Source: Occallatibacter riparius (lineage in GTDB: Bacteria > Acidobacteriota > Terriglobia > Terriglobales > Acidobacteriaceae). From it: a stretch of 64,000 nt of DNA. The DNA is taken from assembly GCF_025264625.1 (NCBI RefSeq), contig NZ_CP093313.1, forward strand, positions 1,302,001 through 1,366,000, written 5' to 3'. The number at the start of each line of letters is the position of its first letter. Position 1 is the first letter of the stretch. The notes below the pieces were generated by a model. That model was given only the letters and a program-made list of their open reading frames with translations, searched no databases and was not told the DNA's origin. This document shows positions 43,885 through 46,288 of this stretch, in pieces. Position numbers and translations under genes: made by a program.

Positions 43885-44385
43885 ATGACCGCCGAGAAAT
43901 CGCCCCTGTACGAGATCACCGCAGACCTGCTCGACGGCCATCCGCTGAAGCTCTCCTATTTTGCAGGGCGCGCGCTTTTGATCGTGAACACAGCGAGCCA
44001 GTGCGGTTTCACGCCGCAGTACGCGGCGCTCGAGCAGCTCTATCGCGATTTCAATCCGCGCGGATTTGAGGTGCTGGCGTTCCCTTCGAACCAGTTTGGT
44101 AACCAGGAGCCCGGCACAGCGGCTGACATCGCTACGTTCTGCGAACGCAATTACGGCGTGAGTTTCCCGGTGTTCGCCAAGATTGACGTGAATGGGGCGA
44201 ATGCGCATCCGGTGTTTCGATTTCTGACTGGGGCGCGCCGCGGGTTCTTCGGCACGAAGCGCATCAAGTGGAACTTTACGAAGTTCCTGGTGGACCGCAG
44301 CGGGAATGTTGTGGGCCGCTATGCGCCGTCGACGGAACCGGCAAAGCTGCGCGATATGATCGATCTGCTCCTCAAGCAGCAGTAA
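43885..44385 (+). CDS. Glutathione peroxidase family protein (Cys type)
   Basis: The 166-residue thiol peroxidase has the peroxidatic cysteine C40 in NTASQCGFTPQY, the conserved Gln in FPSNQFGNQEPG, and the Trp in IKWNFTKFLVD. The Cys (not selenocysteine) form usually works with thioredoxin rather than glutathione. TGAGGAA precedes the ATG at 43885; the frame is open to 43819 but that part lacks homology. Confidence 0.94.
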   Translation: MTAEKSPLYEITADLLDGHPLKLSYFAGRALLIVNTASQCGFTPQYAALEQLYRDFNPRGFEVLAFPSNQFGNQEPGTAADIATFCERNYGVSFPVFAKIDVNGANAHPVFRFLTGARRGFFGTKRIKWNFTKFLVDRSGNVVGRYAPSTEPAKLRDMIDLLLKQQ

Positions 44386-44431
44386 TTCTGTTCTTGAAAA
44401 AACAGGCTTGTAGAATGCACGCGAGGGATTA

Positions 44432-44881
44432 ATGCGCCGCAACTTTCCGCTGTTGCTTGTCCGCATCATTGTGGGAATCGTGTTCCTCACAGAGGGCATT
44501 CTGAAATTCATGCAGCCGGAGGAGCTTGGATACGGCCGGTTTGCTCATATTGGACTGCCGTTGCCGCACATGCTTGCGCCGGCGGTCGGGATCGTGGAGA
44601 TCATCTCCGGTGCGGCGGTAATGCTGAACCTCTATACAGGCGAGGCTGCAGTCCTGCTGCTCGGCGTGATAATCACGGCGCTGATCACGACCAAGATTCC
44701 CATTCTGCTGGGGCATTCTGTGGGGCGGTTCGGTGTGCCGAGGAGTGTGGCGCACACCGGGGTGCTGGCGTTTGTGCATGAGGCGCGCACGGATCTGGCG
44801 ATGCTTTTCTCGCTGGTTGCGATCCTGATGGACTCTGGCATGCACGTGGTGCGGCCGCGCGAGTGGTGGCAGCGCCGGTAG
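44432..44881 (+). CDS. DoxX family membrane protein
   Basis: The 149-residue protein has four membrane segments. It begins LLLVRIIVGIVFLTEGILKFMQP and continues VGIVEIISGAAVMLNLYT, the DoxX pattern. DoxX proteins are linked to quinone or thiol redox systems; a precise role is not assignable. Its stop codon TAG is formed at the left edge of the MITE-like element (TA|G), so the insertion may have created or preserved the stop. Confidence 0.85.
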   Translation: MRRNFPLLLVRIIVGIVFLTEGILKFMQPEELGYGRFAHIGLPLPHMLAPAVGIVEIISGAAVMLNLYTGEAAVLLLGVIITALITTKIPILLGHSVGRFGVPRSVAHTGVLAFVHEARTDLAMLFSLVAILMDSGMHVVRPREWWQRR

Positions 44882-45145
44882 GGTGTACCGACATATACGA
44901 GTGGGCAGCGTTGCCAGCGAAAATCCGGTCAGGCGAAGCGGAGGCCGATGGCTGTGGCGAGTCTACCGTCGAGACCGAGGATGAAGTATAGCCGGATTTT
45001 CGCAGCAACCCGAAGGGACGGGGCCATTTTTACTCATTTCGTTGTCGCTCGTCGCTAACAGACACTCGGTATGCGTCACTCCTCGCTTCTAGAACTGAGA
45101 AAAAATGGCTCCCGTCGCTGCACACTCGTATATGTCGATACACCC
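44881..45145. mobile_element. MITE-like element with 30-bp terminal inverted repeats
   Basis: The ends 44881-44910 and 45116-45145 are inverted repeats matching at 28 of 30 positions (outermost GGGTGTA / TACACCC). Each end is bounded outside by TA (44879-44880 and 45146-45147), as left by Tc1/mariner or IS630-type transposition. Inside are two more inverted repeats, 12 bp (44917-44928 / 44992-45003) and 9 bp (45023-45031 / 45101-45109), so the whole unit folds into a nested structure. It contains no transposase frame. It lies between the DoxX stop and the chrA start, six bases from the ATG. Confidence 0.8.
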
Positions 45146-45151
45146 TAGAGC

Positions 45152-46288
45152 ATGACCGAGATCGCCCCATCCCGATTGCCGGAGCTGTCTCGGTTCTTTC
45201 TTCGACTGGGACTCACGGGCTTTGGAGGCCCAGCGGCGCATATTGCGCTGATGGAGACTGAGGCCGTGGAGCGCCGCGGCTGGATCACGCGCGAGCGATT
45301 TCTGGACCTGCTGGGCGCGTGCAATCTGCTGCCCGGACCGAGCTCGACGCAGGTAGCGATGGCGCTGGGCTACACGCGCGCAGGATGGGCGGGGCTGGCG
45401 ATCGCGGGAGCGTGCTTCATTACGCCGGCTGCGACGTTCACGCTGGCGCTGGCGTGGGCTTACGTGCGCTATGGACACCTGGCGCAGGTGCAGGGGCTGC
45501 TGTATGGCGCCAAGCCGGTGATGGTGGCGATTGTGCTGCAGGCGATCTGGCGGCTTGCGCGCATGGCGCTGCGGACGCGGGCGCTGCTGCTGACTGGGGT
45601 TTTGTGCCTGGCGGCGAACCTGGGCGGTGTGACTCCGATTGCGGTGCTGCTGGCGGCAGGCGCGGTTTTCGCGGCGTGGGCTGCGCGCGGGCGCGTGAAG
45701 GTGACGAGGGGCGGGGTGTTTGCGTTTGCTCCGGTGGCAGGAGTTGCGGCGGGGCCGGGGTCGCCTGCAGTGCTTTCGATTGTGCTGGTGTTCCTGAAGC
45801 TGGGCGTGGTGGTGTTCGGCTCGGGGTATGTGCTGCTGGCATTTCTGCAGGCAGATTTAGTGGATCGCCTGCACTGGGTGACGAAGACGCAGCTTCTGGA
45901 TGCGATCACGGCGGGCCAGGTTACGCCGGGGCCGCTGTTTGCGACGGCGACGTTTCTCGGATACCTGCTGCACGGGTATACGGGGGCTGTGGCCGCAACG
46001 TTGGCCATCTTTCTGCCGTCGTTTTTCATGGCGGGGCTTGTGGGAGCGATGGCGGGGCGGCTGCGGAAGTCGCCGGCGCTGGCGGGGTTTCTGGATGGAG
46101 TGAATGCGGCGGCCGTGGCGCTGATGGCCGTAGTCACTTTGGCGCTGGGGCGCGCGGCGCTGGTGGATGTGTGGACATGGGGGATCGGGCTGGTGAGCGC
46201 TGCGCTGCTGTTGCGATTCAGGCTGAATGCGACGTGGCTGATTCTGAGCGGGGCAGTGCTGGGGATTGTGCTGCAGGTGATGCGCTAG
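45152..46288 (+). CDS. chrA: Chromate transporter, two-domain ChrA family
   Basis: The 378-residue membrane protein has two CHR domains. The first starts FLRLGLTGFGGPAAHIALME with LLGACNLLPGPSSTQVAMALG; the second starts FLKLGVVVFGSGYVLLAFLQ with AITAGQVTPGPLFATATFLGY. The repeated GFGGP/FGSG and PGP motifs are diagnostic. Members export chromate, though many in soil bacteria probably move other anions. The ATG lies just outside a MITE-like element, so promoter and ribosome binding site must come from the element or from the upstream DoxX transcript; no good binding site is visible. Confidence 0.93.
   Translation: MTEIAPSRLPELSRFFLRLGLTGFGGPAAHIALMETEAVERRGWITRERFLDLLGACNLLPGPSSTQVAMALGYTRAGWAGLAIAGACFITPAATFTLALAWAYVRYGHLAQVQGLLYGAKPVMVAIVLQAIWRLARMALRTRALLLTGVLCLAANLGGVTPIAVLLAAGAVFAAWAARGRVKVTRGGVFAFAPVAGVAAGPGSPAVLSIVLVFLKLGVVVFGSGYVLLAFLQADLVDRLHWVTKTQLLDAITAGQVTPGPLFATATFLGYLLHGYTGAVAATLAIFLPSFFMAGLVGAMAGRLRKSPALAGFLDGVNAAAVALMAVVTLALGRAALVDVWTWGIGLVSAALLLRFRLNATWLILSGAVLGIVLQVMR

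Follow-up and report, generated by a model that had tools for sequence, protein, structure and literature searches.

A probable IS5-family MITE relic between doxX- and chrA-like genes, with a core shared among copies that carry different ends

Insertion sequences of the IS427 group measure 832–865 bp, have 2-bp repeats in all but one of the listed cases, and in some cases contain two overlapping frames, according to the description of the group (PMC3281130). TIMEs, which are non-autonomous inverted-repeat units derived from Tn3, are reported to form mosaic transposons (PMC4133298). How non-autonomous elements outlive their own transposase is, in our judgement, an open question. Among the top-ranked titles of the literature search, none dealt with elements of the present kind in Acidobacteria, and none with a single bacterial MITE core bearing exchanged ends.

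The window, meaning the whole 64,000-nucleotide stretch that was analysed, holds a TA-bounded non-coding unit of 265 bp without both TAs, lying between a doxX-like and a chrA-like gene. We read it as an IS5-family MITE with an IS427-like driver, with a core that has been exchanged between ends and with a probable relic at this locus; for these parts taken jointly, we put the probability at about 85%. The features are as follows.

44432–44881, plus strand: doxX-like gene (name from the initial annotation), its TAG stop completed by the element end
44879–45147, no strand: MITE, 265 bp and two boundary TAs, recognised by inverted repeats and copies elsewhere
44879–44880, no strand: left boundary TA, part of the doxX stop TAG
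44879–44910, plus strand: left terminal inverted repeat, end type 1 (TAGGGTGTACCGACATATAC...)
44908–45121, plus strand: conserved core, common to copies with other ends
44917–45003, plus strand: internal arm 1, stem 44917–44928 / 44992–45003
45020–45112, plus strand: internal arm 2, stem 45020–45040 / 45092–45112
45116–45147, minus strand: right terminal inverted repeat, end type 1 (TAGGGTGTATCGACATATAC...)
45146–45147, no strand: right boundary TA
45152–46288, plus strand: chrA-like gene (name likewise from the initial annotation)

The terminal arms span 32 nt and agree at 94% of paired positions (30/32 counting the TAs, 28/30 when these are excluded), and the stems of internal arms 1 and 2 pair at 100% and 86%, respectively. 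The repeat search thereby confirmed the 30-bp terminal repeats, the 265-bp size, the outer TAs and the two nested inverted repeats that the initial annotation had described. The end motif, with at most three mismatches, occurs in the window at two sites, which are the two arms themselves (0.07 expected). No frame of at least 80 aa lies wholly inside the unit, in agreement with the earlier statement that it has no coding frame; three listed frames of that length reach into it, namely doxX with its last codon and the minus-strand frames 44685–45008 and 45089–45478, each of which crosses one unit edge. None of 200 shuffles folds as well as the whole unit on either strand (z −8.25 on the plus and −9.43 on the minus strand). 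An Rfam match to a miRNA was rejected as chance (E 0.21, 24.9 bits against a cut-off of 80), and no other Rfam match was found.

The stop codon of doxX consists of the left TA and the first G of the element, while the chrA start lies four bases (GAGC) past the right TA; these four and the TA make up the six bases given before as the distance to chrA, and the coordinates agree with a unit placed between the doxX stop and the chrA ATG, with the TAG half formed by TA. In all seven relatives with the same gene pair (G004, G008, G009, G027, G028, G069 and G076), the intergenic distance is only 115, 4, 6, 33, 10, 1 and 115 nt, respectively, and their locus therefore lacks the unit; these relatives are 61–70% identical in ChrA over matched parts and do not form a clean before-and-after pair with the window. 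An eighth relative, G061, was left out of the count, its gene-pair matches being fragmentary (32–46%). Since the relatives' genes lie close together, and the gap here shrinks to three bases once the unit is taken out on paper, an originally tight doxX–chrA pair was most likely divided by the insertion, with the stop codon kept. The copy would have entered doxX at its TAG stop, within GTAG; the G that follows TA in the element end then re-created the stop, and the insertion was tolerated as a result.

The initial annotation also held that the element must supply or shape the chrA leader, of which the positional part stands, as the unit occupies the place of that leader. An insertion co-opted as a regulatory leader of chrA would fit the way in which the unit fills the gap, the predicted fold of this spacer at −127.7 kcal/mol and the intact chrA frame of 378 aa. 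However, no sigma-70-like promoter was found in 44380–45400 and no terminator-like site within the unit, the seven relatives have the gene pair without the unit, and a simple polar effect suffices, so that we consider a regulatory leader decidedly unlikely. Under our preferred reading, a probable fixed relic now sets a folded spacer of ~270 nt before chrA, which probably weakens the coupling of chrA to doxX.

Copies of the unit were found in 18 of the 60 genomes searched, source genome included, and all 18 belong to the window's genus, which contributes 36 genomes to the set. These copies are ~64–84% identical to the unit over nearly the whole core. The source genome, a single contig, contains one other copy, which matches query bases 31–243 at 82% and has quite different ends. 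From 87 stretches examined we obtained 74 elements with both ends; the other 13 had no complete end pair, some of them lying at contig ends. No two of the 74 share flanks, which places them at unrelated sites. The search of own and related genomes proposed in the initial annotation thus returned a dispersed family. By end-type labels coined in the present analysis, 19 elements are type 1 (TAGGGTGTATCGACATATAC and variants) and 43 are type 2 (TAGGGCCTGTTMACACTA), with minor types 2b (5), 2d (5), 2c (1) and 3 (1).

A class-wide search, in which two candidates were scored per genome, found the core in at least 15 of 399 genomes (a lower bound) and 11 of 135 genera, or 9 genera when short weak matches (G192, G361 and G374) are set aside. 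One full-length match (G257) comes from a different family; the genome concerned is 6% contaminated. Of 16 stretches outside the genus, 12 carry ends that agree in at least 20 of 24 bases and look like types 2, 2b and 3 by eye, and one partial copy has type-1-like ends (L285, 18/24). Additionally, genome contigs were scanned with the exact type-1 end, since no gapped degenerate core pattern recovered more than 25 of the 74 elements; ungapped ones caught up to 55 rows but had too few fixed bases. The scan, whose set possibly does not include the source organism, returned 24 stretches, every one of them belonging to one of four metagenome-assembled Acidobacteriaceae bacteria. Genome G073 holds near-identical type-1 copies, with both ends present 203–353 bp apart in 12 of 19 fetched stretches. 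This near-identity suggests recent activity, and such young-looking copies make the exchange of ends testable.

Several other repeats were observed along the way. Miniature elements of 167–216 bp with type-1-like ends but, by eye, differing interiors occur in other genomes of the genus (L170, L172, L176, L178–L182, L185, L188, L189 and L193). The type-2 copy L041 (G004:C17 near 20100) is nested in another dispersed repeat with TATAGCGGTTCTCCAATT-like ends (16/18) and many matches in G010. A palindromic unit of 36–39 bases (CCGGGGTCCCC ... GGGGTGG), seen in L141, L146, L147 and L151 of G073 among others and in L300–L306 of the window's own genome, sits at four places in the MITE core. Its inner stem is variable but complementary, and several copies lie between 4-bp direct repeats (AGAC, AAAT, ATAC, GCCT). 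The window's genome has seven exact-pattern copies against none for the reversed control, three of the seven with exact 4-bp repeats, and none falls within the window. We take this unit for a very small mobile repeat.

YTAR is a target preference of IS5 elements. Among the 59 elements with TA at both edges, 55 lie at YTAR (29 at CTAG), compared with 148 of the 1284 TAs in the window (37 CTAG); the count passes over the other 15 of the 74 elements, in which one edge or both have no TA. The window copy, at GTAG, is one of the four exceptions. No direct repeat of four or more bases stands beside the TAs in any of the 74 elements, and one has three. TA duplication at YTAR is thus seen across the family, as expected for an IS5-family (IS427-like) origin. 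Targeting of stop codons was considered and rejected: of 120 flanks, 45 keep the frame that ends at the TAG open over 60 codons, as do 45 of 151 YTAG sites in the window, with 25 and 28 flanks against 35 and 38 sites for the other two phases. As there is no convincing excess at stop frames, insertion into a stop codon seems to be a by-product of the target and not a rule.

Empty sites were sought for nine G004 copies in eight genomes. Two of them (L060 and L063) have aligned flanks joined by one TA in both G010 and G076, and the empty site of L060 also appears in G017 and G034, at 75%. For L041 and L052 spanning alignments exist but the junction is not TA; a spanning match was also listed for a fifth copy (L062 in G076, 81%). 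Single-TA empty sites, which the initial annotation had proposed to look for, therefore exist in the family. As contrary outcomes it had named a sequence occurring only here, or one carried at this locus by all relatives with no empty site and no boundary at TA, whereas copies lie elsewhere, relatives are empty at the locus and the family boundary is TA. Being short and non-coding, with inverted ends, dispersed copies, a TA boundary and family empty sites, the unit deserves the description MITE-like that it first received.

The transposase behind the family was sought by pairing type-1 ends. Three full-length elements of 834–835 bp with type-1-like ends were found in G015, G034 and G061, whose own two ends agree at 17–18 of 20 positions. 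Their six ends differ from the right end of the window unit at 1 (G015), 2, 3, 3, 3 and 4 of 20 bases. The G015 element, reached by such pairing as an 833-bp unit, carries two transposase frames, which match NCBIfam NF033580 (IS5 family) with 134 and 164 bits against a cut-off of 110, and also Pfam DUF4096 and DDE_Tnp_1. Its 109-aa N-terminal piece has matches in 31 of 58 genomes of the genus, the best being G034 and G061, at 89% and 93% identity. The inverted repeat encodes the final transposase residues in G015 and G034; G061 has a broken second frame. The size of ~835 bp, the two frames and the 2-bp repeat are consistent with the description of the IS427 group (PMC3281130). Type-2-like ends (TAGGGCGTGTTAACACTA) flank elements of 820 and 812 bp in G077 and G028, and type-3-like ends (TAGGGCGTGTCATCAAATT) flank elements of 836–837 bp in G071 and G032; the G077, G028 and G071 proteins all score above the NF033580 cut-off.

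The initial annotation had instead proposed an IS630/Tc1-mariner-type transposase. The TA boundary suits such a driver, and IS630 elements are said to favour CTAG, but the three full-length elements with these ends share one transposase type, typed in G015 as IS5, so that mobilisation by IS630/Tc1-mariner is largely refuted and highly improbable. The search for an IS with the same terminal sequence, suggested at the same time, did lead to near-identical ends on ~835-bp elements, albeit with an IS5 transposase.

In the 24 exact-scan stretches, exact ends are spaced at most ~355 bp apart and 11 stretches have one exact end only; no autonomous element with the exact window ends was found there. 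A 697-bp end pair in G013 has no transposase by eye, and L204 and L205 have no convincing end pair; these were rejected as partners. The window's genome gave no match to NF033580, to which 8 of 14 control genomes have matches, and none to the 109-aa G015 piece. As no NF033580 transposase is present in this genome, the window copy looks stranded and is probably no longer able to move. Separately, several contigs of G079 contain ~10 short fragments of the same IS5 transposase type, starting from residue 3 and ~74–78% identical; several lie at contig ends, so they may be shortened copies or assembly breaks.

The exchange of ends is the interesting feature of this family. Copies retain a core of ~213 bp with its paired arms but differ in the outer ~30 bp on both sides. 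Specifically, the alignment between the type-1 and type-2 copies of the source genome starts only ~30 bases in from the left edge and stops ~26 bases short of the right one, which places the change at either end in roughly symmetrical positions. Ends of three types surround this core, within one genus and outside it, and each type matches a different IS5-family element. At the level of sequence comparison, these alignments demonstrate an exchange of ends around one core. In a tree of 72 cores, with two short rows left out, the type-1 label needs four changes, three of them forced by starred branches, and a single change is seen in 0% of 200 bootstrap trees. A single origin of type-1 ends is thus disfavoured by the tree, yet an AU test of a single type-1 clade does not reject it (p 0.116). 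Because of these two results, several exchanges are favoured, not proved.

The core might alternatively be a functional structured RNA or DNA element under selection, with mobility secondary. Counted on 33 non-redundant copies kept from 69 well-filled rows, the four predicted consensus helices pair in 91–96% of cells against an average of 76–86% in shuffles, and 19 of 21 outer pairs have two-sided changes; conservation is about equal in loops and stems (0.84 in each), and the core occurs in the 9 genera mentioned above. Nevertheless, both observations may arise without selection: the alignment used for the counts also supplied the predicted structure and so favours pairing, and arm-to-arm conversion in a palindrome also produces two-sided changes. 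Rfam offers nothing beyond the chance-level match, and 42 of the 60 genomes have no copy, leaving a primarily functional core unlikely. A more tentative extension of our own reading, which we would not yet adopt, is that the MITE lineage persists across a bacterial family as one passenger with several drivers, its three-armed core being selected and both its ends repeatedly swapped, by hairpin-templated conversion, for those of the IS5-family transposase at hand.

Together, the data point to an IS5-family MITE. A two-frame IS427-like transposase encoded in ~835 bp, identified by comparison, would recognise the ~20-bp ends and presumably catalysed insertion at YTAR with duplication of TA. The paired-arm core has passed between end types matching three different IS5-family elements, perhaps through arm-to-arm conversion in a hairpin, and such exchanged ends would let it follow whichever transposase is present.

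By description, the unit resembles ERIC and Correia elements, which are likewise short, folded, non-coding mini-insertions in other hosts. The same likeness, again by description and to other hosts, holds for RUP and NEMIS (PMC3733652). TIMEs belong to the Tn3 family and are described as forming mosaics, whereas the window family varies the ends around one core (PMC4133298). With the IS427 group as described, the partners share size (812–837 bp), a split-frame transposase where read and TA edges; they differ in lying in other genomes, and their group assignment follows from architecture and not from ISfinder (PMC3281130). The closest counterparts are bacterial MITEs moved in trans by ISs, described as short and non-coding with inverted ends, strongly folded transcripts and mobilisation by related ISs, features shared here, with the fold predicted and the mobilisation presumed; in contrast to that description, one core in the present family is joined to several unrelated ends that match different IS5-family elements (PMC10969869).
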